Source: Spirochaetales bacterium (GTDB taxonomy: Bacteria; Spirochaetota; Leptospiria; Leptospirales; Leptonemataceae). Taken from it: 64,000 bases of DNA. Under the pieces are notes generated by a model. The model saw only the letters and a list, made by a program, of their open reading frames with translations, made no database searches and was not told the DNA's origin. Within the stretch, counting starts at the first letter, position 1, and every line of letters starts with the position of its first letter. The stretch lies in the NCBI GenBank assembly GCA_015075425.1, contig JABTUL010000001.1:992001-1056000 (forward strand). The letters run 5' to 3'. The translations under genes and the position numbers were made by a program. This document shows positions 10,705 through 44,371 of the stretch, in pieces.

Positions 10705-11030
10705 TGAAACGATTAACTATTTTCTTTATTGTGCTGGCATCGTTGTCATTGCTGAACTGTTTCAGCATGGGCAGTGTTACCGGTATTGGCCCTCAGGGCT
10801 TTCTGTTCAACGGTGTTACCATTGGTACGGGCGCCACGTCTGCGCAGGGAAATAAGGTTGGACAGGCCTGCAGCCATACCATCTTGATGCTCGTTGCCGT
10901 AGGTGATGCCAGTATCAAGGAAGCTGCTGTCGAAGGTCAGATAACCAATATTACCAGCGTCGATCGCAAGTTTTTTAGCCTGCTCGGGCCCATTTTTACC
11001 CGGGCATGCACCGTCGTAAGAGGGGACTGA
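10701..11030 (+). CDS. TRL-like family lipoprotein (copy 3)
   Basis: 109 residues. The first of two adjacent ATGs (10701) overlaps the previous stop, and the second at 10704 is equally possible. The lipobox is SLLNC (Cys20). The core retains KVGQACSHTILMLVAVGDAS, a short linker and the final CTVVRGD. The gene is followed within 10 bases by a GC-rich hairpin at 11039-11055, so the three TRL copies probably end transcription there. Function unknown; surface or periplasmic location is inferred from the lipobox. Confidence 0.72.
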   Translation: MMKRLTIFFIVLASLSLLNCFSMGSVTGIGPQGFLFNGVTIGTGATSAQGNKVGQACSHTILMLVAVGDASIKEAAVEGQITNITSVDRKFFSLLGPIFTRACTVVRGD

Positions 11031-11038
11031 AACGGACG

Positions 11039-11062
11039 GGGGGCCTGAGGCCCCCTTCTTTC
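11039..11062 (+). terminator. Probable Rho-independent terminator after the TRL trio
   Basis: A perfect 7-base-pair stem (GGGGGCC / GGCCCCC) with a three-base TGA loop at 11039-11055 is followed by TTCTTTCT. It lies between the stop of TRL copy 3 and the ribosome site of the FecR-type gene, so it could end or attenuate transcription into the FecR/PEGA pair. Confidence 0.6.
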
Positions 11063-11077
11063 TATCTGGAGGAAGCG

Positions 11078-12310
11078 ATGAATTGGAGCGTTAGATTTTG
11101 CCTGGGTTTCATGGCCGGAGTCATTCTAACCAGCTGTCAGGAGGCACCTAAAAAGGTCGTCAGTGCTGCAGCCATCGTCTCTTTGAATGGAACGGTTACG
11201 GTTGATTCCCGCCCTGCCAGAACGGGAGAAAAACTGGAAAAAAATGCAACCATAACGGTGGGTGCCGATTCGCAATGCCTCCTGGCGGTGGTTCGCGGTG
11301 AGAGCAGTTTGCGCCTCAGGCTGGGGCCCGGGGCCACATTTCAGTTGCGGCAGGCGCTGGATTCACCGCTTAACGTGACGGGCACACTCAAAGCGGGCCA
11401 GGGCGTTTTTGATCTGGATAAAGCACAGATCGGCGATGCCGTGAAAGTGATTACACCGACGACTGTGGCCGCCGTGCGCGGTACCAAGTTCAGCGTAGCG
11501 GTGGGCCAGGATGAATCTACGGAAGTGAAGGTAGCCCAGGGGCAGGTGGCCATGCGGCCGCGCATTGAACGGCTGGATGCTGTGGATCCGCAGTTGGCGG
11601 CTGACAGTGAGACGCTCAGAGGCGTTCTGGCTGCTGCCGATCAGGGAGCTACGACGGTGGCTGCCGGCCAGGCCGGAACAATCACGAAAAGTGAGGCCAT
11701 GGCCTACAATGAAAGCCTGCCCATAGAAATTAAAGAATTGCAAAAATCGCCAGCGCTGGAAGAGACCGATCCAGTAAAGGCAGCTGCAGAGCTGGAAAAC
11801 CTGAAAGATAGAACTCAGGAGGGCATCAAGGCTTTGCCGGACCGTACCCGCGAAGCCGCTCCGGCTGCAACTCCGGTTCAGATTGATGAAAAGGAATTCC
11901 GACTGCAGACGGAAGGAGATGTCACCGCCGGGGAAAGCCCGCAGAGAACCGTCCCTCCTGCTCTTAAGCCCCCGGCTCCGCAGCGTACTTTTGTTCCGGC
12001 TGCGGTGCCCCCGGTAGCGCCGGCCGTCCTCCCTGCGGCCGCCGGGACATCGCCTGAAGCCAGGGAAATCAAGCTGGGGAATGAGGCACCGCGAGAAGAA
12101 GATTTTCAGAAGCTCCAGGAAGTGCCTGCCGCATCGGAGAAAACCGTTCAAAGTTATGGGGACACGGTGGAGCTTACCAGCGGCAAGCGTTATGAAAATG
12201 TTGGAACTTTGATCAGTAAAGATTTTGTAGTGATCATCGGGGCCGATGGCCGCCGACTGGCGGAGGTATCCAAACGGGAAGTGAAATCCATCAGCAGAGG
12301 GAATCGGTGA
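11078..12310 (+). CDS. FecR-domain lipoprotein
   Basis: 410 residues from an ATG at 11078 with a strong ribosome site (GGAGGAAGCG). The lipobox is LTSC (Cys20). Residues 30-165 form a FecR domain, with LNGTVTVDSRPARTGEKL, a central FQLRQALDSPLNV and VITPTTVAAVRGTKFSVAV. FecR domains are usually periplasmic and sense or scaffold. A long, low-complexity Pro/Ala/Glu-rich section (about 240-350) leads to a small C-terminal beta module, SGKRYENVGTLISKDFVVII. The next gene's protein ends in a similar module. The two genes overlap by TGATG and are probably one unit. Confidence 0.75.
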   Translation: MNWSVRFCLGFMAGVILTSCQEAPKKVVSAAAIVSLNGTVTVDSRPARTGEKLEKNATITVGADSQCLLAVVRGESSLRLRLGPGATFQLRQALDSPLNVTGTLKAGQGVFDLDKAQIGDAVKVITPTTVAAVRGTKFSVAVGQDESTEVKVAQGQVAMRPRIERLDAVDPQLAADSETLRGVLAAADQGATTVAAGQAGTITKSEAMAYNESLPIEIKELQKSPALEETDPVKAAAELENLKDRTQEGIKALPDRTREAAPAATPVQIDEKEFRLQTEGDVTAGESPQRTVPPALKPPAPQRTFVPAAVPPVAPAVLPAAAGTSPEAREIKLGNEAPREEDFQKLQEVPAASEKTVQSYGDTVELTSGKRYENVGTLISKDFVVIIGADGRRLAEVSKREVKSISRGNR

Positions 12311-12768
12311 TGCGTAATCTGGCAGTTGCTTTTCTATCTACCTTTTTGATCAGTGCCTGCACAACCCGTTATGCGGTACAGGTGCAATCGGACCCATCCG
12401 GTGCGGAGGTTGTGATTGGTCATAGATCGCAGGAGCGTGCGCCGTTCCAGGGTGAGCCCCTGGCTCGCGGTCAGACTCCAGCGAACCTTGAGTTTGAGAC
12501 AAAGCCGGATGCGCCAGATGGGGATCTGTACATGTCGGTTTTCCTGCCGGGCTATGAAGAACACCGTTTTCTGTTTGCCCGTAAGGGTCGGTCTGCCCGG
12601 CAAAACAATTTCAATATTAAGTTGCGAAATGCGAGTATCTATTTAAGGGGCGGGCAGGTTCTGCAAGGAGCCATTCTCCAGACGGATGGGTCCGGCTATG
12701 TAGTTTTTACGCGCACGGGGAAAATGTTTGTTCCCGCCCAGAGGGTGGTCCGGGTCGAATTCCATTAG
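12310..12768 (+). CDS. PEGA-like lipoprotein
   Basis: 152 residues from an ATG at 12310 that overlaps the FecR gene's stop (TGATG); a GTG three bases earlier is possible. The lipobox is LISAC (Cys17). Residues 20-95 read like a PEGA domain, a short surface beta-fold (VQVQSDPSGAEVVIG, then a P-x-x-L-x-F segment and LPGYEEHRFLF). Residues 105-150 are a beta module resembling the C-terminus of the FecR-domain protein. The stop overlaps the end of the convergent hydrolase-like gene by four bases. Confidence 0.6.
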   Translation: MRNLAVAFLSTFLISACTTRYAVQVQSDPSGAEVVIGHRSQERAPFQGEPLARGQTPANLEFETKPDAPDGDLYMSVFLPGYEEHRFLFARKGRSARQNNFNIKLRNASIYLRGGQVLQGAILQTDGSGYVVFTRTGKMFVPAQRVVRVEFH

Positions 12769-13850
12769 CCTGTGTCCTGGACCAGATAGGCCAGCATGGC
12801 GGCAATTCGCGCTGCGGGCATATCCAGACCAAAATAGTGGTCATTGCGATAGCTCACATAGGTTAAAGCCCCCGGAACCATGGCGTCAGCGGCCAGTGTA
12901 AGACCGTCGTTCGGGCCGTAATCTTTCAGGATCCGGTAGTAAGCACGGGATCGTGCTGACACGTAACGCTCCAGTGGAGCCGCCACAACACTTATCACGC
13001 GGACGTGCGCGGGGATTTTTCTTTGCGGGGGAGTTGGCGGGCGCCGGAGGGAGAGAAAGCCAGCGTAGTCATAGCCACTGCGGTAGAATTCCAGGCGAGT
13101 CAGCCAGCGCGAAAGAAGCCGGTCCTCATGATAATTTACAAGTTGGGTACCACGAAGCAGTCCGCCTACATTGAGCCAGGCGACGACGTTTTTCATGAAA
13201 GGTTTATTCCCGCACAAAGACCAGGCAGCCTGAACGTCTGCTCCGCCCTTACTGACAGAAGCAAGAATTACTTTCTCCTGGCGATCGGCCAGAAAGTCAC
13301 AAATGATGGTGGCGTTTTGTTCTACAGAGCCTGTTTGTTCCACAGCGATCAACGTCTCGCGCAGTCCCATCTCCTGGGCCAGATTTCGCAGAGTGCGACC
13401 ATCGGCGCCACTGTGCGGGTTGTCGCGATAGAACATTCCCGGAACAAAGGCCAGGAGCGGTCCATCCTGGACAAGGGGCAGGGCAGCCTGAAAGTTTTGT
13501 TCGTATTCTCGAATTTGTTTGCGAAAATTTCTCTGCTGCGGGGATTCCACGGAGCGCAGAAAGAACAGAGCGCTCAACGCATCCACGGAATGTTCTTTGT
13601 CGGGTCTAAGAACCCCGTCCTTCAAGAAATCAGACCATTCTACATGCTTGTATTGATCTTTTACTTTTTGAAAGAAAGAATGCTCATCGTCGCAGACCTG
13701 TTCCAGATAAAGGTCCAGATAACGGCAATGGGCAGCCCGGCCCGGCTCAAGCTTCAGGGCCGGAGCCAGGCAACCCCAGAGCAATGCTCCTGGCAAGAGC
13801 AGGAGGCGAGGCAGCCAGGCTGACTTTACTGCCCTGTGATGATCAAACAC
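12765..13850 (-). CDS. Alpha/beta-hydrolase-like lipoprotein
   Basis: 361 residues from a GTG at 13850, which overlaps the preceding TRL gene by 25 bases. The signal peptide ends in LLWGC (Cys27). Residues 138-220 read like an alpha/beta hydrolase core: FVPGMFYRDNPHSGADG, a helix, and ILASVSKGGADVQAAW, where the Ser-x-Ser-Lys-Gly-Gly region is a candidate nucleophile elbow although it departs from G-x-S-x-G. A late His in RNDHYFGLDMP (near residue 341) could complete a triad. A periplasmic lipase or esterase is one guess; enzyme activity is not proven. Confidence 0.5.
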   Translation of the reverse strand: MFDHHRAVKSAWLPRLLLLPGALLWGCLAPALKLEPGRAAHCRYLDLYLEQVCDDEHSFFQKVKDQYKHVEWSDFLKDGVLRPDKEHSVDALSALFFLRSVESPQQRNFRKQIREYEQNFQAALPLVQDGPLLAFVPGMFYRDNPHSGADGRTLRNLAQEMGLRETLIAVEQTGSVEQNATIICDFLADRQEKVILASVSKGGADVQAAWSLCGNKPFMKNVVAWLNVGGLLRGTQLVNYHEDRLLSRWLTRLEFYRSGYDYAGFLSLRRPPTPPQRKIPAHVRVISVVAAPLERYVSARSRAYYRILKDYGPNDGLTLAADAMVPGALTYVSYRNDHYFGLDMPAARIAAMLAYLVQDTG

Positions 13851-14215
13851 TTCCGATCATAGAGAAGCCCGGAATCACCACCTACATATTCAGTGTAGGG
13901 CATGAGGGCAAACAAGGAAAACAGGGAAGTATGCTTCACGTTGATGGTATCAATCTGGGTGATACCGCCGTCGGCTGCAGCGGCGGGCACGCTCATGTCA
14001 CCCCAGGAAATCAGGCGTAAAAGAATGGCATGGGAACAAGCCTGCCCGGTTTTCTGCCCGAGCTGCTTGCCGACGCAGCCATCGTTGGTTGCCCCGCAGT
14101 TCACATTGTAAGTGGTATGATTGAACAGTGTACCCTTTTGCGGCTTGGGTACCATATGACCGCTTGTGCAGGCAGCCATAAACACCAATGTCGATAGTGC
14201 AATGTTGATTTTCAT
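13826..14215 (-). CDS. TRL-like family lipoprotein (copy 4, opposite strand)
   Basis: 129 residues, from an ATG with a strong ribosome site (AAGGAGAT) and an AT-rich promoter region upstream. The lipobox is FMAAC (Cys16). The core retains QKTGQACSHAILLRLISWGD, then an Ala-rich segment and TQIDTINVKHTSLFS. It carries an insert around residues 35-50 with two Cys and a longer C-terminal part than copies 1-3. It is the only copy on the minus strand and overlaps the hydrolase-like gene by 25 bases, which suggests translational coupling. Confidence 0.75.
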   Translation of the reverse strand: MKINIALSTLVFMAACTSGHMVPKPQKGTLFNHTTYNVNCGATNDGCVGKQLGQKTGQACSHAILLRLISWGDMSVPAAAADGGITQIDTINVKHTSLFSLFALMPYTEYVGGDSGLLYDRKCLIITGQ

Positions 14216-14233
14216 TTTGAGAATCTCCTTTTT

Positions 14234-14264
14234 GATAATTTTTTATTTCATATTATTAAGTCAA
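14234..14264 (-). promoter_or_regulatory. Candidate promoter of the TRL copy 4 / hydrolase unit
   Basis: On the minus strand TTGACT at 14264-14259 is a near-perfect -35 box. AT-rich sequence follows, with ATTATC as the best -10 candidate at 14239-14234, giving a 19-base spacing, longer than usual. The whole gap from 14216 to 14307 is strikingly AT-rich compared with the genes around it. Confidence 0.4.
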
Positions 14265-14307
14265 TGATTTTTTGTGTTTTTCCATGAAAATTATACGCAT
14301 AAACGAT

Positions 14308-15060
14308 TCATAATACTCCCCTGTAGCCGATCCACGGAATCACAAAACCGCCGGATAGCGGCAGCGGAGGCTGGGCCTGAAAAAAAAGGAACTGCTTTAC
14401 ATAAGAATCCATTGAAATCACCTGATTGCGGTCCAGAAGCAGCGGATCTATATACAAATGGCGCTTCTCCTGAATGCCCCAGTTGCCGTTTACGCCCAAT
14501 TCCAGCGAAACAAAAAAACCTTTAAGATCACGAGGCGCAACGATGACCCCCAGCGAAGCACCTGAGTATCCATAGGAAAGATCGGAACGGAAAATCAGCG
14601 GGGAACTGCCCAGCCTGACGTCGTTCAACTGCCAGCTTTCTCTTTGACGAATGACCACCAGAGGACGTTCCTCAAGCGTCCAGTCAGCTCTTCCTGTATG
14701 GATACCGACAAACGGGATAAAATCCTGGTCCAGGTCGGGGAATAGATAATGGGCATAAGCCAGGCCGCTCACCTTGCGCTGGTTTAGCCTGCCTTCCGTG
14801 AAGAAGGAGACGGAATATCCGCCTTCCTCAATCAGGACCCGCTGCCTTGCCAGAGAATCGGCCTTTCTCAAATTGGGATCTGCGATTCCAGCCACTCCGA
14901 ACCGCCAGGACGGAGCGGGTGAAAAGGCAAGATTCAAAGAATATGCTGTACCGTCCGGAAGAATGGCCGCATAGTAGGCTTGCCGGGTTTCCTCCTGCGC
15001 CGGGATCGATTCCATTACAATCCAGTAGAAAATAAAAAGAATCCCGCGACGGTAATGCAT
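14308..15060 (-). CDS. Hypothetical exported protein
   Basis: 250 residues from an ATG at 15060; an upstream TTG at 15072 is also in frame. The N-terminus (MHYRRGILFIFYWIVMESIPA) looks like a cleavable signal peptide, with mature protein starting near Gln22. The rest is rich in aromatic and Gly residues in alternating patterns (for example SYGYSGASLGVIV) and ends in WIGYRGVL, which would suit an outer-membrane beta-barrel or a secreted beta-rich protein. I do not recognise a family. Its start lies 15 bases after the propeptide-like lipoprotein gene ends, so it is probably the last gene of the protease unit. Confidence 0.55.
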   Translation of the reverse strand: MHYRRGILFIFYWIVMESIPAQEETRQAYYAAILPDGTAYSLNLAFSPAPSWRFGVAGIADPNLRKADSLARQRVLIEEGGYSVSFFTEGRLNQRKVSGLAYAHYLFPDLDQDFIPFVGIHTGRADWTLEERPLVVIRQRESWQLNDVRLGSSPLIFRSDLSYGYSGASLGVIVAPRDLKGFFVSLELGVNGNWGIQEKRHLYIDPLLLDRNQVISMDSYVKQFLFFQAQPPLPLSGGFVIPWIGYRGVL

Positions 15061-33054: not shown

Positions 33055-36000
33055 ATGGATTTTCCCACCATCATAGACAATCAGTCGGAGGAGACGAGTC
33101 TTTCTACGGTGCTGAGTCGCGCCATCCTGCCTTATACGGCGCGCATGCAGGTGGCGGTAGGGTATTTCTACTATTCAGGTTTTCAACTGCTTGCTCCGGC
33201 CCTGCGGCAGAACCCGCTGTTCAGTCTATTCCAGGCCCCGCCTCATTCTCTACGGGTCATCATGAGTCCGCGCACGGACCGGACTACGGCGGATCTATTG
33301 AGTCGAGGGCTCGATTTACAAAAGGGCCTCTTGCACTCTGTGCTGGCCCGGATAGAAGAAGATGTGGCCGCCGGCGATGTGGAGCATAGCGATTTTTTTC
33401 TGGAACTCCTCAAGCGCGAAATCCTTGATGTGAGACTGTATACGGAGGACTTCTTCCACGCCAAAGCGTATCTGGCCCAGGTCTCCTTGCCGAATGGGGA
33501 GCACTACTACTCTATAGTAGGTTCGTCGAACTTCAGCGCTTCCGGCTTCACGGACAATCGTGAACTCAATCTGACCAACTCAGGGTCCTTGCATTACCGG
33601 TATCTGCTCCAATGGTTCGATAAGATCTGGGATGGGGCCACAGTAGGGCTCAGTCCACACCTGATTCGGATCGTGGAGAGTGAGCGCAAATCCAGACAGA
33701 GAAATCTGTCATCTGAAGTCGCTCTTTCGCCCTTTGACCTCTACCTTTTCTTGACGCAGCACTACCTGGGCGCGCTCACTCGCGAACGTCTGGACCGGGC
33801 CGATATGCTGGCCGAATTTCAGCAGGTGGGTGCTGAGAATATACTCAGCAAACTTGAGATTTTAGGTGGTGCGATTGTCTCTGATTCTGTGGGACTTGGC
33901 AAGACTTTCACTGCGGGCGAAGTGATTCGCCGACTGCGTGCCGCAGATGCCCGGGTTTTGATCGTAGTGCCGCCCACGCTTCTGCCGCAGTGGAAGGAAA
34001 CCCTTTCCGAATCGTTTGGCATTCCTGAGTCCCAATATGTTCAGTTTCTATCACAGGGCAAGCTGAGCCAGGTGGCCACGGAGCAAGTGCATACGCTCAA
34101 GGGAGGACAGGAGTTTGACCTGATCGTAGTGGATGAAGCTCACCGGGCGCGCAATGCCCAGACACGGCTGTACCAGAATCTCAAGGCCTTGCAGCCGCAA
34201 ACAACGGAGCGCCGTGCTCACGTGCTGCTCCTCACCGCCACGCCATTCAACAACTCCATCCGGGACTTACAGAATCTGGTCGACCTTTGCACAACGCAGG
34301 CACGCCTCTATGCGGCGGGATTCACACCCAATGCCTTTGATCGGTTTGCGGAACGTTCGCGGGATCTACGCAGGGACGGTGGGGTGGCCATCCAGACCGA
34401 CGGCGATTTCCAGAAAGCCATGACGGAAATTCATGCCATTCTGGGCGGTGTGATGCTCCTGCGCATGCGCTCATCTATTAAGAAAAAATACAAAGACATC
34501 AGCATAGCCGGCAAGCCTCTGGTGTTTTATGATCCAGAAGTGCGCAGGCTCGCTTATGCTTATTCGGAAAAGCACCATGATCTGTTTGAAAACCTGTCCG
34601 GGTTTCTTACCGAACTTCATCTGCCGCACATAAAACTTTCCAACCCTGAATCAGGCAGTACGCTTTCGGGGCTTTTTGTGCTTTTTCTTTTCAAGCGCAT
34701 CGAATCGAGTTTGTATGCTTTCTATATGTCGCTTATGAATATCAAGGAGCGCGAGCGGGAGCTACAGGCAGCCATTCATTCGGGCAACGATCTGTCTGAA
34801 CTACTCAAAGCCTACAACCGGGCCTGGCTGCAGCGGGAGCCCATAGAAGAGGAGCCCGAACTATTCGATGCGGCGCCCCCAACCGAGCCCGACGCTGAGG
34901 CCGCGGCACCGGAGCCTGCCCTGGGATTCACCATGGAAGATGTTCGGGGCTGGATTGCAGAGGATACCAGGCGCATTGACACCTTTGTGGGAACATACCT
35001 GCATCCGCTCATGACGGATGTTAATGATCCGCTAACGCTGGCCGATCCCAAGCTTTCTGTCTATCTGTCTGCTCTGGGCCGCGAACGCTTCCGGAAATGT
35101 ATGACGTTTACAGAGTACCGTGATACGGCGCGTTACATTACCCATCATGTGGGAGCGGAGGTGGAGGTACGCAGTGCCATGGTCACAGCCGGAGATGCTG
35201 GTCTGAAAGAAAAGCTGGGCCGCTTTGCTCCCCGGGGGCAGCGCATGGAGGTGCGTCCAGAGGACGAACTCGATCTGCTCATTGCCACCGATGTCCTCGC
35301 TGAGGGAGTCAACCTGCAAGACGCGGACCTCCTGGTCAATTTCGATTTGCCCTGGAATCCCATGCGCATTGTGCAGCGCGTTGGTCGGGTGAATAGAATT
35401 GGTTCAGAAAACCGGGTGATGGTGCTCAACATGACGCCATCCGATAAAGTCCTGTCGCAGTTCCTGGGTCTGGTAGAAATTCTCACGGCCAAGGTGAAGC
35501 AGGTGGCCATGCTGCTCGGCAAAGAAATGGCCATCCTTTCCAGCGAAGACGAAGTCATCGACATCAAAGAAATCGGCGTGGAGCTGCAAAATGTCCGCAA
35601 TGCGCAGACGGTCGATGCACTGGAAGGATTGGCCCACAAATCGCGTATTTTCATGAACATGGAAGGAGAGACGGAAGAAGACCACTTTCGTGCCAGCCTG
35701 CAATTTTCTGCTCTCAAGCACCAGATTCGGCCTGAGGATTTTGTGCAGAGAAGCGGCAGCCGGACCTACTACACGGTGCTTTCCCCTGAGCCGCGGCAGG
35801 CCTTTGCGCTTTTTGAAATTTATGGCAAGAGACGTGAGCACCGCGATTTGCTCTCGCGTCACTGGCTGGCTGTGGAAAGCTCCGGTCATGGCGTGCGCGA
35901 TCAGGAGGGCTCTGCCTTCCCGTATGCTTTCATCCAGACGCGCCATGCGGTGGGGAGTGTTCCTCTTTTCCAGAAGACAGTGGCTCTGGAGCCGCTCGAC

Positions 36001-36462
36001 CAGGCAATTCAGGAACGCTGTTTGAAACTCCTTTCAGAAAGGCGCGAACGCTTCAAACCGGGGGCCGTGGGCAGCAAACTCAAACACATCAAGGCGCGGA
36101 TCCAGGCGGATCTTTTGATTGTGCTCTCAAAACTACAGAAAGAGGCGGACCTGCCGGGCGTAGAGAGCTTTGCCCAGGTCGCAAGGTCTTTGCCCGGTTT
36201 TGATCCAGCCATCGTTCCCGAGATTGCCGATGTCATGGCCCGCCATCCTTTTGCCCAATCTCAGCTCACGTACTTACGCCGTGGGCTGCAGAAAGTCGGG
36301 CTGGGTCTGGATCGTGGGATCAGTCCGCCGCAATATAGAGATTTTGCGGGTGTGCTGCTCGATTTCTACAACAAGCATATTATTTCTGATCCGGGCTTGC
36401 GGGGCAGCATCTACAAACAGCAGGAAATTGAAGGTCGTCAGATTTTAGTTATTTATGCCTGA
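33055..36462 (+). CDS. PLD-type nuclease fused to an SNF2-like helicase
   Basis: 1135 residues. The N-terminal 200 residues form a phospholipase-D-like nuclease domain with His135/Lys137 (FFHAKAYL), GSSNFSASGF at 156-165 and Asn168. The middle is an SF2 helicase of SNF2 type with Walker A at 276-284 (SDSVGLGKT), a DEAH box at 360-363 and LLTATPFNN near 392-400. The second helicase lobe has LLIATDVLAEGVNLQDADLL and IVQRVGRVNRIGS. The last 350 residues are a helical region without a clear match. It should be an ATP-driven DNA translocase with a single-chain nuclease. Its neighbours suggest restriction of foreign DNA. Confidence 0.85.
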   Translation: MDFPTIIDNQSEETSLSTVLSRAILPYTARMQVAVGYFYYSGFQLLAPALRQNPLFSLFQAPPHSLRVIMSPRTDRTTADLLSRGLDLQKGLLHSVLARIEEDVAAGDVEHSDFFLELLKREILDVRLYTEDFFHAKAYLAQVSLPNGEHYYSIVGSSNFSASGFTDNRELNLTNSGSLHYRYLLQWFDKIWDGATVGLSPHLIRIVESERKSRQRNLSSEVALSPFDLYLFLTQHYLGALTRERLDRADMLAEFQQVGAENILSKLEILGGAIVSDSVGLGKTFTAGEVIRRLRAADARVLIVVPPTLLPQWKETLSESFGIPESQYVQFLSQGKLSQVATEQVHTLKGGQEFDLIVVDEAHRARNAQTRLYQNLKALQPQTTERRAHVLLLTATPFNNSIRDLQNLVDLCTTQARLYAAGFTPNAFDRFAERSRDLRRDGGVAIQTDGDFQKAMTEIHAILGGVMLLRMRSSIKKKYKDISIAGKPLVFYDPEVRRLAYAYSEKHHDLFENLSGFLTELHLPHIKLSNPESGSTLSGLFVLFLFKRIESSLYAFYMSLMNIKERERELQAAIHSGNDLSELLKAYNRAWLQREPIEEEPELFDAAPPTEPDAEAAAPEPALGFTMEDVRGWIAEDTRRIDTFVGTYLHPLMTDVNDPLTLADPKLSVYLSALGRERFRKCMTFTEYRDTARYITHHVGAEVEVRSAMVTAGDAGLKEKLGRFAPRGQRMEVRPEDELDLLIATDVLAEGVNLQDADLLVNFDLPWNPMRIVQRVGRVNRIGSENRVMVLNMTPSDKVLSQFLGLVEILTAKVKQVAMLLGKEMAILSSEDEVIDIKEIGVELQNVRNAQTVDALEGLAHKSRIFMNMEGETEEDHFRASLQFSALKHQIRPEDFVQRSGSRTYYTVLSPEPRQAFALFEIYGKRREHRDLLSRHWLAVESSGHGVRDQEGSAFPYAFIQTRHAVGSVPLFQKTVALEPLDQAIQERCLKLLSERRERFKPGAVGSKLKHIKARIQADLLIVLSKLQKEADLPGVESFAQVARSLPGFDPAIVPEIADVMARHPFAQSQLTYLRRGLQKVGLGLDRGISPPQYRDFAGVLLDFYNKHIISDPGLRGSIYKQQEIEGRQILVIYA

Positions 36463-36492
36463 AGTATTTACAAGAGAGGAGGACAAAAGCGC

Positions 36493-36696
36493 ATGCAATC
36501 CATTAAGCAACAGGCTATAGCCCTGATTGAACGGTTACCGGAAAATGTGTCTGCTGAACAATTGATAGAAGAGATAATCATTTTCGAGAAGATTCAGCGC
36601 GGTATAAAACAGCTTGACGCCGGTCAGGGCATAGAACATGAAAATGCGCGGAAAAAGCTAACAAAATGGCTCGGAGCTCGGGCGGATGGTTCCTGA
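36493..36696 (+). CDS. RelB/ParD-like antitoxin
   Basis: 67 residues. The pattern MQSIKQQAIALIERLPENVS, then AEQLIEEIIIFEKIQRGI, then LDAGQGIEHENARKKLTKWL is that of short antitoxins found in front of RelE/ParE-type toxins. The ATG is preceded by GAGAGGAGGACAAAAGCGC, a strong ribosome site at slightly long spacing. It overlaps the toxin remnant by 11 bases. An antitoxin without a full toxin may be a relic, or may act as a regulator of the operon it lies in. Confidence 0.7.
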   Translation: MQSIKQQAIALIERLPENVSAEQLIEEIIIFEKIQRGIKQLDAGQGIEHENARKKLTKWLGARADGS

Positions 36697-36823
36697 AGTG
36701 TCCGATCCCGCGCTAAGGGAGAGGTTCTACGGTAACTTTCGGATCATTTATCGGATTACAGATCATACTATTGAAATACTTACAGTTCATCATTGCGCTA
36801 TGCCTCTGGAAGGTTCAACATGA
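36686..36823 (+). pseudogene. C-terminal remnant of a RelE/ParE-type toxin
   Basis: 45 codons from ATG 36686 to TGA 36823. The sequence, with RFYGNFRIIYRI and IEILTVHHCAMPL, is the C-terminal half of a RelE/ParE toxin, in which such a 'G-N-x-R-I-x-Y-R' strand and 'I-x-I-L-x-V-x-H' strand are typical. The N-terminal half, about 50 residues with the first helices, is missing: the region upstream codes for the antitoxin in another frame. Its stop overlaps the ATG of the methyltransferase, so it may be kept for translational coupling. It is unlikely to be toxic as it stands. Confidence 0.65.
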
Positions 36824-39800
36824 GCAAGATGGACCCAATACGCAGCCGGATTCTGGCCGCCCATTCCCTTGAAGGCGTGGCCGAACTCTTTACCTATTTG
36901 CAGTTCCCGGTGCGCCGGGAAGATGAGTGCCTGCACGTAGAGCTCGATGACAATAGCTTTCTTGAGGTCTTTGTTTTTGCAGAGCGCTCAGAGGTTGCCC
37001 GCCGCGCCAGCACCTTTCTGTACCAACGGGCCGGGGTTCTGGCTCTTTCCGCCGATTTTGAGGAATGGATCTTTATCCGGCGCGGCATGGAGGACCGGAT
37101 CAGGTTGCAGCGTTATAAGGTCCAGCGCCAGGCATTGCGCGAAAACCCCAATGCCGTGCCCCTGCAGCGTCTCTCCGCGCTGAAATTTGGTCAGATTTCT
37201 GGATTTGAGGATCTCTTTGACCGTAAGGATATTTCGCAGCGCTTCTACCGCGAATTCATCAAACAGAAGGCGGCGCTGGGTCATGCGATTCAGGGTATTT
37301 CTGATCCTGAGGAGAAACGTTTATATGCCCAGGTGCTGCTGGACCGGCTGATATTCCTCTTCTTCCTGCAATCCCGGGGACTCCTCAATGGAGAAGAGCG
37401 CTATTTTGCCACGCGCTTTGTTGAACACAGCAAGAAGCGCTACGGTTTCTATCAAATTTTCTTAAAGGAGCTATTCTTTGCGGCCCTCTGCCAGAGCGAG
37501 CGGCGGCCAGAGACTCTGGCTATCGTTGGGCAGAGCATTCCGTATCTGAACGGCGGCTTATTTCTCCAGCATGAGCTGGAAGAGAAGTACCCGGGCATCA
37601 AAGTGGAGAATGAATCCTTTGGCGAACTTTTCCGCTTCTTTGAGTCCTGGCGCTGGAATGTGAGCGAGCGCTCGGATTCCGACGAAGATGCCATCGATCC
37701 CTACATTTTAGGCTACATATTTGAAAATACGCTGGGAGAGAACAAGTCCGGCGGTGTCTATTATACGCCTCCGGCTCTGTCCGAATTCCTGACCGACGAA
37801 ACGCTGGCGGCCCATACCTTTGCTATGGCCGACCGTATCAGTGCATCGGGGCATTACAGGGATACGCAGGACTTCATCCAGAAAGCGCCCGAGGCAGAGT
37901 TGATTCTATTCTATGAGCTGTTGCGGAGCCAGCGCATTGCGGATCCGGCCTGTGGCAGCGGCCAATTTCTGGTGCAGGCCCTGCATGCTCTCTCTTCCTA
38001 CCATCAGGCCCTGAGTCAGCGTGCGCTAACCGACAGTCCGGCACTCAAGGCCCACGTGGAGAAAGACTATACACTGGCTGGCGAAGTCATCTATGCCATC
38101 CGGCGCTTTATCACCGCCCACAATATTTTTGGCTGCGATATTCTGCCCGAGGCCGCTGAAATCACGCGCTTGCGGCTTTTTCTGGCCATGGTCGAGGGCA
38201 TTAGCGGAAATGCACACATTGAGCCTTTGCCCAATATAGACTTTCATATCCGCACCGGCAATGCTCTGACCGGTTTCTTGCAGTTGCCGGAGGATTTCTT
38301 CTCCGCTCTACCCAAAAAAAAGAAACAGGCCCGCCCGGCTGAGCAGCATGTGCTCGATTTTGGCGGCGCGCCCGACAAGATGCTAAAGAAGGAGAATCTC
38401 ATTTTTCTCTACACCAATGAGAAGAATACGGCGCGGGCCCTGGAGCTGCGCCGGGAGATCCGCGCTCTGGATCAGGAACTCGCGGCCGTTCTGGATCAGC
38501 GGCTGGAGCAGCTGCTGGGCGAGTGGAAAGTCAAAGCCAAGAACAAGGTCGATTTTATTGATTTCAAGAAAGATGAAGAAGCGAGCGGCGCGCTCAAAAA
38601 TTTCCAGCTCAAGGCCCGGGACCTCGCGCCTTTGCACTGGGGCCTCGAATTCAGCCGGGTTCTGCATCCATCAGCTCCCAACCCGCCGGGCTTTGATGTC
38701 ATCCTCACCAATCCGCCCTGGGAGGTCTGGAAACCCAATTCCCAGGAATTCTTTGAGCGTCACATAGCCGACTTCCGGGGACTGGACAAGAATGCAGCAC
38801 GTAAGGCCGTTGCGACCTGTTTCAAGAAGGAGCCGGCTCTCAAGAGGGAATGGTTACAGCACTGTGCCCTGACCAGTTCTATGGCCGAATTCTGGCGCAG
38901 TTCGGATTTCTTTCCGGCTCGTGGCAGCGGGGACATCAATCTCTACAAACTCTTTCTGGAGCGTGCCTTCTACCTCTTGAAAGAGGGCGGCTCCCTGGGC
39001 ATGGTTGTCCCCTCGGGTTTGTATTCCGATCTGGGCTGCAAAGATCTACGCAGGCTCTGCTTTGAACAAAGTCGGCTAAATTTTCTGTATGGCTTTGAGA
39101 ATGCGAAGGCTCTTTTTGAAAATGTGCATCGCAGTTTCAAATTCATCCTGCTTTCGCTTTCCCGCTCGGAAATACCCGGGACCGCTGTCCCGGCCGCCTT
39201 CATGCTCCATACGGAAAGCGAACTGCGCCAGGCGCACGCTGCGAACAAAGATCCGCGCAAGGACCCGGGCCGCTTTTTGCGTTTGCCTCTCGAACTCATT
39301 CGCCGGCTCAGTCCTGAAGCGTTGAGTCTCATGGAATTCAAGAGCGCCACGGACATTGCTATCGTGGAAAAAATGGCGCGCTTCCCGCGTCTGGGGGAGG
39401 AACTGCCCCGAACCTGGAATGTGAAACTCTCTGCAGAATTCCACATGACGAACGATGCGCATCTCTTTATGACGCGCGCGGAACTCGAAAAGAAGGGTGC
39501 GGCGTATGATGCAGAGAGCATGATCTGGAAAAAGGGCAAAGAGGAGTGGTGGCCCTTGTATGAAGGAAAGATGATTTGGCAGTATGAGCAAATTGCCAAT
39601 GGCACTCTCATGTATTGGGTAAACTGCGATAGGAAATCCAGCGGTCAAAAAAAAGGACCATTATCATTGGCATTTAGGAAAGTCGGTCAGAATACAAATA
39701 TACGGAATATGATTGTATCTGCACTTCCTGAAAAGGGCTTCACAGGCAACTCGTTGGGGCTCTTGTCTGTATCTCTGGATCAAAGTGAATTCTTTCTGCT

Positions 39801-40233
39801 GACCTTTTTGAATTCTTTCATCGTCGACTGGGAGTTACGCAAGAAAATCGATAAGAACCTGCAAAACCATTTTGTCGAAGGTTTGCATATCCCCCGCTTC
39901 CCGCCGGCCCCATCCAAAAAACCAGGTGCTGACGAAGCTGCCTACCGGCGTTATGAGCGGGCCTTGATTGAGGCGGCGGCGCGGCTGGTGGGCACGACGG
40001 CGGCCTTCGATGCGCTTTTACAGGAGGTCTTTGGTGGCAAGGCCAGTCATAAGACGCATGGGGTGACGGACCTAATGGAGCGGCAGAAGCTCAAGAATGC
40101 GATTGATGGTATGGTGGCGCGGATCTATGGGCTGACGGAGGAGGAATTCCAGCATGTTCTCGGCAGCTTTCCGCTGGTGGCAGAAGATGTGAAGGCCGGA
40201 GTGTTGGAAGCTTTCCGGGAGCTGGGGGAGTAG
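36820..40233 (+). CDS. Eco57I-like / type ISP-like N6-adenine DNA methyltransferase
   Basis: 1137 residues from an ATG at 36820 that overlaps the toxin remnant's stop; the frame is open nine codons upstream. The SAM motif DPACGSGQFL is at about residue 375 and the catalytic NPPW at about residue 631 (DVILTNPPWEVW), the order seen in Eco57I-type adenine methyltransferases. The N-terminal 330 residues hold a helical region but no clear PD-(D/E)xK nuclease motif. The C-terminal 400 residues would be target recognition. With the PLD/helicase encoded upstream it could form a restriction-modification pair with the nuclease on the other chain. Confidence 0.85.
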   Translation: MSKMDPIRSRILAAHSLEGVAELFTYLQFPVRREDECLHVELDDNSFLEVFVFAERSEVARRASTFLYQRAGVLALSADFEEWIFIRRGMEDRIRLQRYKVQRQALRENPNAVPLQRLSALKFGQISGFEDLFDRKDISQRFYREFIKQKAALGHAIQGISDPEEKRLYAQVLLDRLIFLFFLQSRGLLNGEERYFATRFVEHSKKRYGFYQIFLKELFFAALCQSERRPETLAIVGQSIPYLNGGLFLQHELEEKYPGIKVENESFGELFRFFESWRWNVSERSDSDEDAIDPYILGYIFENTLGENKSGGVYYTPPALSEFLTDETLAAHTFAMADRISASGHYRDTQDFIQKAPEAELILFYELLRSQRIADPACGSGQFLVQALHALSSYHQALSQRALTDSPALKAHVEKDYTLAGEVIYAIRRFITAHNIFGCDILPEAAEITRLRLFLAMVEGISGNAHIEPLPNIDFHIRTGNALTGFLQLPEDFFSALPKKKKQARPAEQHVLDFGGAPDKMLKKENLIFLYTNEKNTARALELRREIRALDQELAAVLDQRLEQLLGEWKVKAKNKVDFIDFKKDEEASGALKNFQLKARDLAPLHWGLEFSRVLHPSAPNPPGFDVILTNPPWEVWKPNSQEFFERHIADFRGLDKNAARKAVATCFKKEPALKREWLQHCALTSSMAEFWRSSDFFPARGSGDINLYKLFLERAFYLLKEGGSLGMVVPSGLYSDLGCKDLRRLCFEQSRLNFLYGFENAKALFENVHRSFKFILLSLSRSEIPGTAVPAAFMLHTESELRQAHAANKDPRKDPGRFLRLPLELIRRLSPEALSLMEFKSATDIAIVEKMARFPRLGEELPRTWNVKLSAEFHMTNDAHLFMTRAELEKKGAAYDAESMIWKKGKEEWWPLYEGKMIWQYEQIANGTLMYWVNCDRKSSGQKKGPLSLAFRKVGQNTNIRNMIVSALPEKGFTGNSLGLLSVSLDQSEFFLLTFLNSFIVDWELRKKIDKNLQNHFVEGLHIPRFPPAPSKKPGADEAAYRRYERALIEAAARLVGTTAAFDALLQEVFGGKASHKTHGVTDLMERQKLKNAIDGMVARIYGLTEEEFQHVLGSFPLVAEDVKAGVLEAFRELGE

Positions 40234-40237
40234 GGGT

Positions 40238-42595
40238 ATGGGGGATGTGAAAAAGATTTTCTTTGCTTATCCAGCGGCTGAACCGCAGATCAAGGATGCA
40301 ATTACTAAGGCAGTGCGTGATTTCAATCATCACCAGCACAATTTCAAAGGAATAACCTGGGAGGATTTACACATCAACGGCCGCCTCATCAATGCGGCTA
40401 TTCTTAAAGAAATTCAGGAGGCCGATATTTTTATTTGTGATCTGTCGCGGCTGAATGTGAATGTGCTGTTCGAATTGGGATATGCTATCGGACTCAGGAA
40501 AAGCATTTTGATTTTCCTGAACGAAAATGTTCCGCAGGGTAAAGTCAACTATGCCTCCTTTCGCGTTCTGAAAGGAGTCGGGTATTCGCCGTATAAGAAT
40601 GCTCGCGATATATTATCGACGCTGAATACACAGCTGAAGGCCGAGCACCATGTATTCCTTGAAGAATTGGACGCAAATCAGAGTGCGCTGCAGCGCTCCG
40701 ATGTTCTCCTAATAACAAACGGTCAAAACGACCAGGCGAGCGTCGAATTGTACGAACATCTCTCCAAGAGTGACTTCAAGATTATCAGCGATGATTCTTA
40801 TGAGGTTGAGTATCAGACCTTTCGGTGGTACGTGGGGTCGATTTTCGAAGCCCAGGCCGTTATTGTCCATCATTCTCACCATGGAAATGAAAGCACACGT
40901 AATCAAATGGGGGCTCTGTTCGGCGGGATGGCGCTTGGTCTCGGTCGCAGAGTAGTGTTCTTGGCCCCTGCGCCCTACAATGCACCTATTGATTATGGGG
41001 ATCTTCTGATCGAATACGATAGCGCGACCCTTTGCGCCATCAAGGCCGACGATTGGCTTTCTGATCACGTAAAGCACATCCTGCGGAAAGGAGCCGAAAA
41101 CCGTACTGAACTAAACCTGATTCGGCTCGGACTTGGGTGCGAAGTGGCTGAAGAGGAAAGATCCGAATTGGTTAAGTATTTTGTCACTATTGATGCATAC
41201 TCCAAGGCTTTTGACCGTCGGCTAAGCCTCGTTGTGGGCCGTAAAGGTTCTGGCAAAAGTGCGCTGTTCATAAAGTTACTCCATGATTTAGCGGATGATC
41301 CCCAATCGCTGACGGTCGTTCTTAAACCCGATTCTGACGAGCTCGTACAAAATGCCGAGCTCGCGGGGCGATTAAAGTCAGATGCGACGCGTAGAGATTT
41401 CTTCTCTATAGTCTGGCGCTTTGTAATTCTATCGAAATTACTGTTGGCGATTGAGAAGAAACTGGAATCAAGGGTGCGCTCCGGTGCACAATTTGATGCG
41501 ATGGAAACTGAAATCATTGATTTTTGCCTGAAACACAGGGAATTGCTTTCTCTGAATTTCTTTGGCGTGATGAGTCGATTTGCAGAAGAGGTTTCGGGTG
41601 AGATAACTGCTCGGACCATACAGGCGCTTTACAAAGACCTCCTAACGTCCGCAATTCGTCTATTGCGGAACTATTTTGAGCGGCGATCTTTTGTGACCAT
41701 TCGATTGCTCGCTGATAATCTGGATAAATCTTGGGATGTCAGAAGTGACCTTGGCGCCCAAAGCGAAATGATCCTTAAATTGCTCGAGTACGGAGAAAAA
41801 ATCATTGAGGACCTGCGGATAGTTGATTCTAAAGGACTAAAATACAGCTGCCTTGTCCTTCTCAGAAAGGACATTTTTGAATTTTTGAGACGCAGCAGTC
41901 GCGAACCTGACAAGCTAACGGCTGCTGCACAGGAAATCGATTGGGGCCGGACGCCACACTTGCTTCAACTGTTAGTAGAAAAAAGAATACGGATATTGCT
42001 GGCGTTACCTGAGCATGATGATCTGGGAGAGGTCTGGCGCCAGCACTTCGAAGGCTTCAATGCAGAGCAGACTCCTTTGGACATTGTGCAGTCATCCGTC
42101 GTTCCGCGACCGCGCGATGTGATCTATTTTTTTGCGCGATTGTTCGAATCTGCGGCGAACCATGGGCGCGCAAGAATTGTAGGACTTGATTGGGATTATG
42201 CGCGCGAATCCTACCGGACCTTCCTGGAGCAGAGCATTCTTGCTGAAGTTAAAGCTGAATACCCGCGGTCTGAGCAAATATTGGAGCTTGTGCGCAGCCT
42301 TGGTGCCAATGCTGACGGCTGGTTGGCTTTGGAGCATCTGAAGTCTGGCGCGAAAACGATCGGTATCGGTCAAGATGAGCTGTATAATATTCTAGATCAA
42401 TTTTTGCGGAGGGATTTTCTTGAGATCCGAGAAAATCGATCGCGGATTGAGGATATTCAACAAATGCGTAGTTGTGAATCAAGGGCAAGATTCTGGAGGC
42501 GCGCTCAGATTGGTTTGCGTTTTGGTGGCGTTGCCGCGCATGGAGCGCCGCGGCACGATTTTCCACCAGCCGGACAAATTTCGATGGAGGAGTAG
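40238..42595 (+). CDS. TIR-like domains joined to a Sll1717-type P-loop ATPase
   Basis: 785 residues, starting 4 bases after the methyltransferase. Residues 1-115 look like a TIR or deoxyribosyltransferase-like fold: DIFICDLSRLNVNVLFELGY, with Glu79 as the candidate catalytic residue. Residues 153-270 look like a second, weaker copy (SDVLLITNGQND, QMGALFGGMALGLGRRVVF). Residues 295-680 form a P-loop ATPase with Walker A GRKGSGKS at 334-341 and DNLDKSW at 493-499, as in the Sll1717/FunZ family. The last 40 residues are Arg/Ala/Gly-rich and possibly out of frame. The gene is lower in GC than its neighbours. It could be a sensor that breaks down NAD or nucleotides on infection; this is inference. 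Confidence 0.65.
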   Translation: MGDVKKIFFAYPAAEPQIKDAITKAVRDFNHHQHNFKGITWEDLHINGRLINAAILKEIQEADIFICDLSRLNVNVLFELGYAIGLRKSILIFLNENVPQGKVNYASFRVLKGVGYSPYKNARDILSTLNTQLKAEHHVFLEELDANQSALQRSDVLLITNGQNDQASVELYEHLSKSDFKIISDDSYEVEYQTFRWYVGSIFEAQAVIVHHSHHGNESTRNQMGALFGGMALGLGRRVVFLAPAPYNAPIDYGDLLIEYDSATLCAIKADDWLSDHVKHILRKGAENRTELNLIRLGLGCEVAEEERSELVKYFVTIDAYSKAFDRRLSLVVGRKGSGKSALFIKLLHDLADDPQSLTVVLKPDSDELVQNAELAGRLKSDATRRDFFSIVWRFVILSKLLLAIEKKLESRVRSGAQFDAMETEIIDFCLKHRELLSLNFFGVMSRFAEEVSGEITARTIQALYKDLLTSAIRLLRNYFERRSFVTIRLLADNLDKSWDVRSDLGAQSEMILKLLEYGEKIIEDLRIVDSKGLKYSCLVLLRKDIFEFLRRSSREPDKLTAAAQEIDWGRTPHLLQLLVEKRIRILLALPEHDDLGEVWRQHFEGFNAEQTPLDIVQSSVVPRPRDVIYFFARLFESAANHGRARIVGLDWDYARESYRTFLEQSILAEVKAEYPRSEQILELVRSLGANADGWLALEHLKSGAKTIGIGQDELYNILDQFLRRDFLEIRENRSRIEDIQQMRSCESRARFWRRAQIGLRFGGVAAHGAPRHDFPPAGQISMEE

Positions 42596-42596
42596 G

Positions 42597-43781
42597 ATGC
42601 ATTTTTCGCACATTAAGATTCGCAACTGGAAGAATTTCAAAAGCGCGGAGGCGGCGCTGACCGAACGCGTGTTCATCATAGGAGCCAACGCAGCGGGTAA
42701 GTCCAATTTTCTGGATGCTTTCCGTTTTCTGAAAGACATAGCCCGCACAGGTGGCGGTTTGCAGGAGGCGGTCAACAAGGAACGCGGGGGCCTGAGCAAA
42801 ATTCGCTGCCTTGCGGCCAGAGCGCCCAATACAGATGTGGAGATTGAGGTTTCTGTAGCGGATGACAGCGGCAGGGAATTGTACAGGTACAAGCTGGCCA
42901 TATCGCAACAGGGCAAAGGCGCGCGTGGGGGCAATGGGGGAGGCTCAGTTGCGATTCTAAAAAAGGAGGAAGTGCACGCAGGATCGAATCTGGTTCTTGA
43001 ACGACCGAATGCCGCAGATAAGGATGATCCCACATTACTACAGTACACTCACCTGGAACAGCCGACCGTAAATGGCCCATTTCGGGAATTGGTCGAATTT
43101 TTTCAATCGATCGAGTACTTGCACGTCGTTCCTCAGCTGATTCGCAGTCCGGAGTCCTTTCAGTCTACGGGCGGCCAGGATGATTATTTTGGACGTGGAC
43201 TGATTGAGAAGATACAGAAAAAAAATCTGCGCACCAGGGATTCTTTTTTGCGGCGCATTAACGAAGCTCTCTCCAAATTGCTGCCCCATTTTGAGGATCT
43301 GCAAATAGAAAAGGATGAGATGGGTCTTCCGCACCTGATTGTGCGCTACAAACACTGGCGCGACAAGGGAGCGCGCCAGAATGAGCGCCAATTCTCGGAT
43401 GGTACTCTGCGCTTCATTGGTCTCTTCTGGGCATTACAGGACGGCAACAAACCGATCCTGCTCGAGGAGCCGGAGCTTTCCTTACATTCCAGTGTTATTG
43501 CCTGGCTTCCAGAAATTATCGCCAAAATGCAGAAAAAGAAAGATGCTGGTCTGCGTCAGGTCATCCTTTCAACCCATAGTTTTGAGTTGCTCCGCTCCCC
43601 CACGATTGGGATGGCAGAAGTACTGCTGCTTGTGCCGGGCAGCGAGGCGACTGAAATCAAGCAGGCCTCAGATTTCTCAGAGATCAAAGCCATGGTGGAT
43701 TCAGGTTTCTCTTTGGCAGAATCTGCGATTCCCCTCACAAATCCTGGCGATATCGAGAAAATGGTAACCGGGATTAAATGA
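42597..43781 (+). CDS. AAA/ABC-type ATPase (AAA_21-like)
   Basis: 394 residues from an ATG at 42597, one base after the TIR gene's stop. The frame is open upstream to 42420. Walker A is GANAAGKS at 29-36; QFSDGTLRFIGLFWAL is the ABC-type signature region; ILLEEPELSLHSSVI is Walker B; and VILSTHSFELLRS carries the switch His. This is the SMC/RecF-like ATPase type that often pairs with a TOPRIM nuclease in phage defence. The next gene overlaps by ATGA and is such a partner. Confidence 0.85.
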   Translation: MHFSHIKIRNWKNFKSAEAALTERVFIIGANAAGKSNFLDAFRFLKDIARTGGGLQEAVNKERGGLSKIRCLAARAPNTDVEIEVSVADDSGRELYRYKLAISQQGKGARGGNGGGSVAILKKEEVHAGSNLVLERPNAADKDDPTLLQYTHLEQPTVNGPFRELVEFFQSIEYLHVVPQLIRSPESFQSTGGQDDYFGRGLIEKIQKKNLRTRDSFLRRINEALSKLLPHFEDLQIEKDEMGLPHLIVRYKHWRDKGARQNERQFSDGTLRFIGLFWALQDGNKPILLEEPELSLHSSVIAWLPEIIAKMQKKKDAGLRQVILSTHSFELLRSPTIGMAEVLLLVPGSEATEIKQASDFSEIKAMVDSGFSLAESAIPLTNPGDIEKMVTGIK

Positions 43782-44371
43782 CTGGATGGTTTATTTATGC
43801 TGAAGATCTCCTCAGTGAGTCTTTCGCCAAAGGGATGGTTGCTGAGCTGGGATTTGAGATAGCATTCTCCAAATTCGTGGGGGGCTGGTCCCATCTAAAG
43901 GGAAACTTCGATAAGTATCGTAATCTTGCAGCAAAAGGTAACAAGGTTCTCATCCTCACAGATCTGGACCAGAGAGATTGCGCCCCGAGTCTTCTCAGAG
44001 AATGGTCGCAGGGCCTTGGTATTCCTCAAGGACTGGTTTTACGCGTTTGTGTGCATGAAATTGAATCCTGGTTGATGGCGGACCGGGATGCCTTTGCGGA
44101 ATTTCTTGGATTCTCTACAACAAATCTACCGCTTTATCCTGATGCGGAAAGGGATCCAAAGCGCTATCTATTCACCACGATTGCTTCAAAATCGCGGCGC
44201 CGCGAAATAAAAGCGGGCATTTTGCCGCGGTCTGGATCGCATGTCGGGCCAGAATACAATAGCCTCATGATCAATTTTCTCAAAACGGATTTCCGAATGG
44301 ATGTAGCAAGAAAGCATTCACCGAGTTTGGAGCGGGCTCTGGCGGCACTTTCCCGCTGCCACCGGGCATAA
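43778..44371 (+). CDS. DUF4276 (TOPRIM-like) protein, partner of the ATPase
   Basis: 197 residues overlapping the ATPase stop (ATGA). The TOPRIM-like features are an early acidic pair (IYAEDLLSESF), a Asp-x-Asp in VLILTDLDQRDC and VHEIESWLMADRDAF, the pattern of the DUF4276 family. The usual 'VEG' start has become 'YAED', a conservative change that retains the Glu. It may be a nuclease or nucleic-acid-binding partner controlled by the ATPase. It is the last gene of the operon. Confidence 0.75.
   Translation: MTGWFIYAEDLLSESFAKGMVAELGFEIAFSKFVGGWSHLKGNFDKYRNLAAKGNKVLILTDLDQRDCAPSLLREWSQGLGIPQGLVLRVCVHEIESWLMADRDAFAEFLGFSTTNLPLYPDAERDPKRYLFTTIASKSRRREIKAGILPRSGSHVGPEYNSLMINFLKTDFRMDVARKHSPSLERALAALSRCHRA

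Follow-up and report, generated by a model that had tools for sequence, protein, structure and literature searches.

In the window analysed here (the whole 64 kb stretch of DNA, from a Spirochaetales bacterium), five co-directional genes spanning 33055-44371 encode a PLD-SNF2 helicase, a methylase, the protein that is our subject (hereafter TIR-ATPase), HEC-01A and HEC-01B. The genes, with the parts of the TIR-ATPase gene, are as follows.

33055..36462, + strand: PLD-domain SNF2 helicase (Pfam PLDc_2, SNF2 and Helicase_C; PADLOC HKD+Snf2 3e-54, DrmD 1e-37), core of the local defence island
36793..40233, + strand: type IIG-like N6 DNA methylase (Pfam Eco57I 5e-18; PADLOC REase_MTase_IIG 1.5e-58), ending 4 bp before the TIR-ATPase gene
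40238..42595, + strand: whole TIR-ATPase gene, 785 aa, comprising unit 1, unit 2 and an Sll1717 ATPase/winged helix, an architecture shared by full-length relatives
40244..40651, + strand: unit 1, TIR/NDT-fold domain, residues 3-138 (Pfam NDT match, AF2 model, structural matches, Rcl/DNPH1 profile match)
40472..40474, + strand: codon of Glu79, the predicted catalytic residue, in the third helix of the fold (E in 88/88; aligns with DNPH1 E104)
40685..41077, + strand: unit 2, degenerate TIR-fold domain, residues 150-280 (F228 at the glutamate position; fold matches to the RUN1, L6 and SARM1 TIR domains)
41135..42442, + strand: Sll1717-family P-loop ATPase core, residues 300-735 (NCBIfam NF047389; Cdc6/Orc1, TnsC, CED-4 and NLR NB-ARC folds, Z 11-13)
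41237..41260, + strand: Walker A GRKGSGKS, residues 334-341 (G334, G337, G339 and K340 invariant in 88 proteins)
41711..41734, + strand: Walker-B-like ADNLDKSW, residues 492-499 (D493, D496 and W499 invariant in 88 proteins)
42215..42520, + strand: C-terminal winged-helix-like region, approximately residues 660-761 (AF2 secondary structure; Cdc6/Orc1 alignments reaching residue ~765)
42597..43781, + strand: HEC-01A-type AAA ATPase (PADLOC HEC-01A 2.4e-136), its start abutting the TIR-ATPase gene stop
43778..44371, + strand: HEC-01B, DUF4276-like (PADLOC HEC-01B 1.9e-46)

The TIR-ATPase gene starts with the ATG at 40238 and its stop codon ends at 42595 (785 aa), exactly where an earlier note, made from the sequence alone, had placed it. 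The motifs named in that note are all present: Glu79 in NVLFELGYAIG, SDVLLIT ... GGMALGLGRRVVF in unit 2, GRKGSGKS and ADNLDKSW. Its reading of an Sll1717-type ATPase after two TIR-like units agrees with the predicted folds described below and with the match of residues 300-735 to the NCBIfam model ATPase_Sll1717 (NF047389; 183.7 bits, E 6.7e-54, cut-off 75 bits), which was also matched by all 10 of the family members examined. The ORC-CDC6-like model PF24389 gives 16.1 bits where 27 are needed. Unit 1 matches Pfam Nuc_deoxyrib_tr (PF05014) at residues 49-99 at 4e-5, with 24.2 bits for the whole protein and 27.6 bits for residues 1-298 (gathering score 28.8), and in profile-profile comparison it matches Rcl/DNPH1 at 7.7e-5. 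At E<0.01, Nuc_deoxyrib_tr is matched by 59 of 78 relatives and the CAP12/Pycsar TIR model (CAP12-PCTIR_TIR) by 9 of 78, the window protein scoring 17.0 bits against the latter, below its 24.7 cut-off; a CBASS-type TIR-effector model is matched by 7 of 10 members (best 1.4e-6). No sequence family matches unit 2; its profile-profile alignment with unit 1 (hhalign) gives P=1.8e-4 and sets F228 opposite E79. No Pfam or NCBIfam model names the whole protein, and no PADLOC-DB 2.0 model spans it, the matches among 10 members being partial and weak.

AlphaFold2 modelling of residues 1-298 with a 78-sequence alignment gave a mean pLDDT of 93.2 and a pTM of 0.91, which suggests that the two units are fixed in their packing. 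In structural alignment, residues 2-137 match DNPH1 (Z 10.8, rmsd 2.6, 128 residues), SARM1 TIR (9.9), SPARTA TIR (9.9), MilB (9.7) and C. elegans TIR-1 (9.5), and residues 149-281 match RUN1 TIR (Z 11.3, rmsd 2.8, 129 residues), L6 TIR (10.7) and SARM1 (10.1). We counted Z gaps of <1 as ties, so that unit 1 is best described as TIR/NDT, fold alone giving no clear preference. The comparison of folds over residues 1-280 that the earlier note had proposed thus finds the TIR/NDT fold in both of its TIR-like units, but there is a single candidate active site, as unit 2 has F228 in place of the glutamate. The full-length AF2 model (pLDDT 85.8, pTM 0.63) matches, over residues ~292-766, archaeal Cdc6/Orc1 (Z 12.9, rmsd 9.0, 289 residues; Z 12.4, rmsd 6.1, 328 residues), the archaeal ATPase 2fna (Z 12.4, rmsd 5.2, 301 residues), TnsC (Z 12.2) and NLR and CED-4 cores (Z ~11-12; CED-4 11.7). 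From these matches the C-terminal half is predicted to be an AAA+/STAND-type NTPase with a winged helix; in the model it resembles the ORC/Cdc6 and STAND/NLR types, without a repeat sensor domain.

Glu79, on whose conservation the earlier note had staked its proposal, is invariant in 88 full-length proteins, as is N75; W41 is found in 87 of the 88, Y11 in 84 and D68 in 80 (E in 6). We can rule out that the invariance of E79 is an artefact of our glutamate-bearing search pattern, since 26 genome or viral-contig loci that do not fit the pattern, recovered through the P-loop, all have E79. The corresponding position of unit 2, 228, is V, I, L, A, F, W, M or Y in the 88 proteins (F here) and never acidic, which marks unit 2 as a pseudo-enzyme; judged from these alignments, only unit 1 can be catalytic, with Glu79 as the candidate glutamate. 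Unit 2 keeps other residues nearly invariant (E189 in 85, G230 in 88, P250 in 84 and D252 in 87 of the proteins) and therefore appears constrained for another role.

The chemistry of unit 1 can be approached through the DNPH1 triad Y24-D80-E104, in which E104 is the nucleophile and D80 the likely general acid (PMC12751057, PMC10603095). A gapless profile alignment with Rcl/DNPH1 places E104 on E79 and D80 on I55 (I 61, V 26 and T 1 of 88). Y24 falls on F8 (F 80, L 5 and M 2 of 88; never Tyr), an equivalence deduced from the residues at which the structural alignments begin (2 with 18, 4 with 20; rat 5 with 10); Y11 had been considered as the Tyr24 counterpart and was rejected on these offsets. 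The Tyr-Asp-Glu triad of DNPH1/NDT is thus incomplete in unit 1, where it reads Phe8-Ile55-Glu79 and the glutamate alone is kept. According to PMC11204291, the Tyr position is usually occupied by Phe or Ala in TIR domains that have NADase activity, and Tyr itself is characteristic of NDT, DNPH1 and a Thoeris ThsB for which no NADase activity was detected. We infer that unit 1 has the TIR-NADase set of Phe and Glu, which would suit a good leaving group such as nicotinamide, and because the triad is cut down to this arrangement, NAD+ is favoured over deoxynucleotides as its probable substrate. Counting against NAD+, the sequence profile of unit 1 is nearer to DNPH1/NDT (59/78 members) than to TIR (9/78).

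Single-sequence scans of genome and viral contigs gave no relatives, whereas alignment-based scans found at least 234 stretches in genome contigs that encode them, of which 80 were kept for analysis, and 19 relatives, eight of them full-length, in viral contigs; GenBank phage records gave no match. By tblastn, relatives also lie on plasmids of Leptospira, Leptolyngbya, Rhodococcus, Ochrobactrum, Rhizobium, Mesorhizobium, Paraburkholderia and Ensifer, with a broken copy in Planococcus, and most plasmid records annotate the family protein as hypothetical. The phyla represented include Cyanobacteria-related lineages, Planctomycetes, Elusimicrobia, Spirochaetes, Bacillota, Actinomycetota, Bacteroidota, Chloroflexi, Acidobacteriota, Poribacteria, Pseudomonadota and others, and one relative is archaeal (Candidatus Methylarchaceae). 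Length is near-constant, at ~750-810 aa. An unrooted tree built from the ATPase part contains a branch (support 0.98) that separates the 86 fused proteins and two ATPase-only proteins from the seven other ATPase-only proteins, consistent with one old origin of the fusion. The eight full-length viral-contig copies (L100-L107) are on contigs classed as viral in IMG/VR; two of them, L104 and L105, look identical to host copies in Pseudomonas chlororaphis (L089) and Cohaesibacter (L090) and are probably provirus cargo. Copies interrupted by frameshifts or stops (L013 on a Rhodococcus qingshengii plasmid, L015 in Rhizobium johnstonii, L018 in Planococcus, and L003/L054) suggest that decay has set in for some of the copies on plasmids and in genomes. 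We also considered whether the divergent C-terminus contains a frameshift and dropped the idea, because the nearest relatives align in frame by eye ('DIQQMR...RFW' with 'DIETLR...RRW').

At 48.0% GC, compared with 53.5% (sd 2.1) for equal-length stretches, the TIR-ATPase gene is the minimum of the 64 kb window, which is the scope of this comparison, and the lower GC content remarked on in the earlier note is real. Its GC3 is 0.499, compared with 0.579 +/- 0.024 for 16 other genes in the window, and is far from the values of both the helicase (0.617) and the methylase (0.642). HEC-01B, with a GC3 of 0.475, is as low as the TIR-ATPase gene. The separate transfer that the earlier note had read from base composition gains support from distribution: searches of other genomes from the window's own taxonomic family did not find the gene, and the nearest relatives of the window protein belong to several phyla, which together point to lateral transfer. 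A genome of the same family (L126, G187:C72) has the helicase-methylase pair at 47-49% identity, followed by other genes, so that the pair has an exchangeable cargo position, which the TIR-ATPase gene, together with HEC-01, fills here. The cargo there is a 214-aa protein, nuclease-like by eye and matched by no PADLOC model, with PDC-M19-like genes nearby. We rejected the TIR-ATPase as a fixed third subunit of the helicase-methylase system, since the same-family pair has other cargo and most relatives lack the pair. A Poribacteria contig (L057) again has the family gene beside a methylase and a PLD-SNF2 helicase, with the orientation reversed. The HEC-01A/HEC-01B pair of the window has no recognised full Hma operon around it.

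Among 836 clustered neighbour ORFs within 8 kb at ~84 loci, there is no conserved operon partner; since no neighbour family recurs in more than four loci, the gene appears self-sufficient. The recurrent neighbour families are resolvases, integrases, methylases and metabolic genes, and relatives are mostly solo genes, some on plasmids or predicted proviruses. The 136 immediate neighbours include approximately five type IIG/DrmMI-type methylases, four phage integrases, three resolvases and three UvrD helicases; the commonest PADLOC models match only ~5 of the 136, which are mostly not known defence genes, and this counts against a defence role. On the Rhodococcus plasmid (L013), a separate TIR gene and a DUF4062 gene (6927-7430 and 10767-14405) flank the family member, forming an NADase-type cluster.

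Several known systems can be compared with the family. TIR-STAND/TIR-NB-ARC proteins (plant RPP1; bacterial Avs-type proteins, including the SIR2-STAND Avs5) likewise have an N-terminal domain of the NAD-cleaving type followed by a STAND/ORC-like NTPase and winged helix, RPP1 aligning with residues 150-765 (Z 12.7) and Avs5 with 300-766 (Z 10.2), but the present family has two TIR/NDT units, the second degenerate, an Sll1717-type ATPase, no LRR, TPR or WD40 sensor, and near-constant length. The NCBIfam model DS41_1, which we take to represent a gene of the DS-41 system, shows remote similarity around the P-loop (25.6 bits for the window protein; best member 9e-14), but its cut-off of 370 bits is far off and the 448-position model is matched around the P-loop only. 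DS-41 itself is a phage-tested system (DefensePredictor; PMC13092281). DNPH1/Rcl and the nucleoside 2-deoxyribosyltransferases share the fold of unit 1 (Z up to 10.8) and the motif YELG/FELG, but the equivalents of Asp80 and Tyr24 are absent here, where the domain is fused to a pseudo-TIR and an ATPase. The Retron-Eco1 effector, which belongs to a retron with RT and RNA and is not known to have an ATPase fusion, is another case of an NDT-like fold serving as a defence effector. It is reported to form filaments (PMC12887533) and is NAD+-hydrolyzing according to the title of a Mol Cell 2024 paper cited in PMC12548924. Swarozyc, a DUF4062 TIR-like NADase (PMC13174449), is likewise a single protein with an NDT/TIR-intermediate domain and a catalytic glutamate, but DUF4062 is matched by one of 78 members (E 0.005), and here the auxiliary part is an ATPase and the units are in tandem. 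Retron-Eco1 and Swarozyc are precedents in the literature for NDT/TIR-intermediate effectors in defence. An NAD-type effector on an NTPase switch is thus of a known kind; the tandem catalytic/pseudo-catalytic N-terminus is the unusual part.

Taking architecture, predicted folds, conservation and genomic setting together, we propose, at a probability of roughly 0.5, that the TIR-ATPase is a single-protein, minimal-NLR-like abortive-infection device against phages or plasmids, in which unit 1 would cleave NAD+ and the ATPase would act as the switch; a defence role of any kind we consider probable. The ORC/Cdc6-STAND-type ATPase and winged helix would sense a phage-derived signal, for which DNA or a DNA-protein complex is a candidate, given the lack of a repeat sensor domain and the likeness to DNA-bound initiators. 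The signal would drive ATP-dependent oligomerisation, gathering the N-terminal tandem units, and unit 1, through Glu79, would cleave the N-glycosidic bond of NAD+, the loss of which would stop the infected cell. Unit 2 may serve as a partner surface, completing or gating the site of unit 1 like the second TIR protomer in other TIR assemblies; an active site shared between the units is our guess. In this genome the gene is cargo behind the helicase-methylase defence pair. More tentatively, the family as a whole may be a large single-gene immune system spread across phyla and built on a TIR pseudo-dimer within one chain: an inactive TIR would complete or gate a catalytic NDT/TIR site, and an ORC/Cdc6-type ATPase would itself recognise phage DNA or replication structures, without a repeat sensor.

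The substrate is the point on which the nearest alternative differs: the same device could use unit 1 as a DNPH1/NDT-like deoxynucleotide N-glycosidase, destroying dNMP/dNTP precursors and not NAD+. Rcl/DNPH1 and the NDTs are indeed the best sequence-profile relatives of unit 1, and DNPH1 is among its closest folds, but the whole family lacks both D80, the likely general acid (Ile/Val instead), and Y24 (Phe instead), leaving one residue of the DNPH1 triad, and we regard this alternative as unlikely. The absence of the DNPH1 acid from the active site also counts against a DNA-damaging effector, in which unit 1 would strip bases from DNA bound by the ORC/Cdc6-like ATPase, an activity proposed earlier for the NDT-type domains of Abi proteins (PMC3710099); although the ATPase-winged helix does match DNA-bound initiators and TnsC, its match to NLR NB-ARC proteins whose target is not DNA is of similar quality, leaving this version quite improbable.

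Two further alternatives concern the role of the protein. An ATPase for stress or plasmid maintenance, with an N-terminus that binds nucleotide without catalysis, would explain the many isolated copies with ordinary or mobile genes around them, and unit 2 is already non-catalytic; yet Glu79 and its motif are invariant (88/88) over very divergent sequences, which a binding domain would not obviously need, and the patchy, mobile distribution and the island setting here also speak against such a role, which we hold to be improbable. The idea that unit 1 makes a nucleotide signal (e.g. a cyclic ADP-ribose) for a separate effector, and is not self-killing, has a precedent in TIR domains such as Thoeris ThsB that make signals, according to PMC11204291, but with no conserved partner gene within 8 kb at ~84 loci it is the least probable of the four.

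Relatives of the TIR-ATPase occur in many bacterial phyla and in an archaeon, yet the whole protein is unnamed in the libraries and papers that we searched; in the literature on Sll1717, FunZ, DS41 and this architecture, from which subscription papers were mostly absent, we found no description of the family. Should it prove to be an NADase switch, the protein would represent a minimal NLR-like form of immunity that dispenses with a repeat sensor, and the sharing of one active site by two TIR units could be studied within a single chain.
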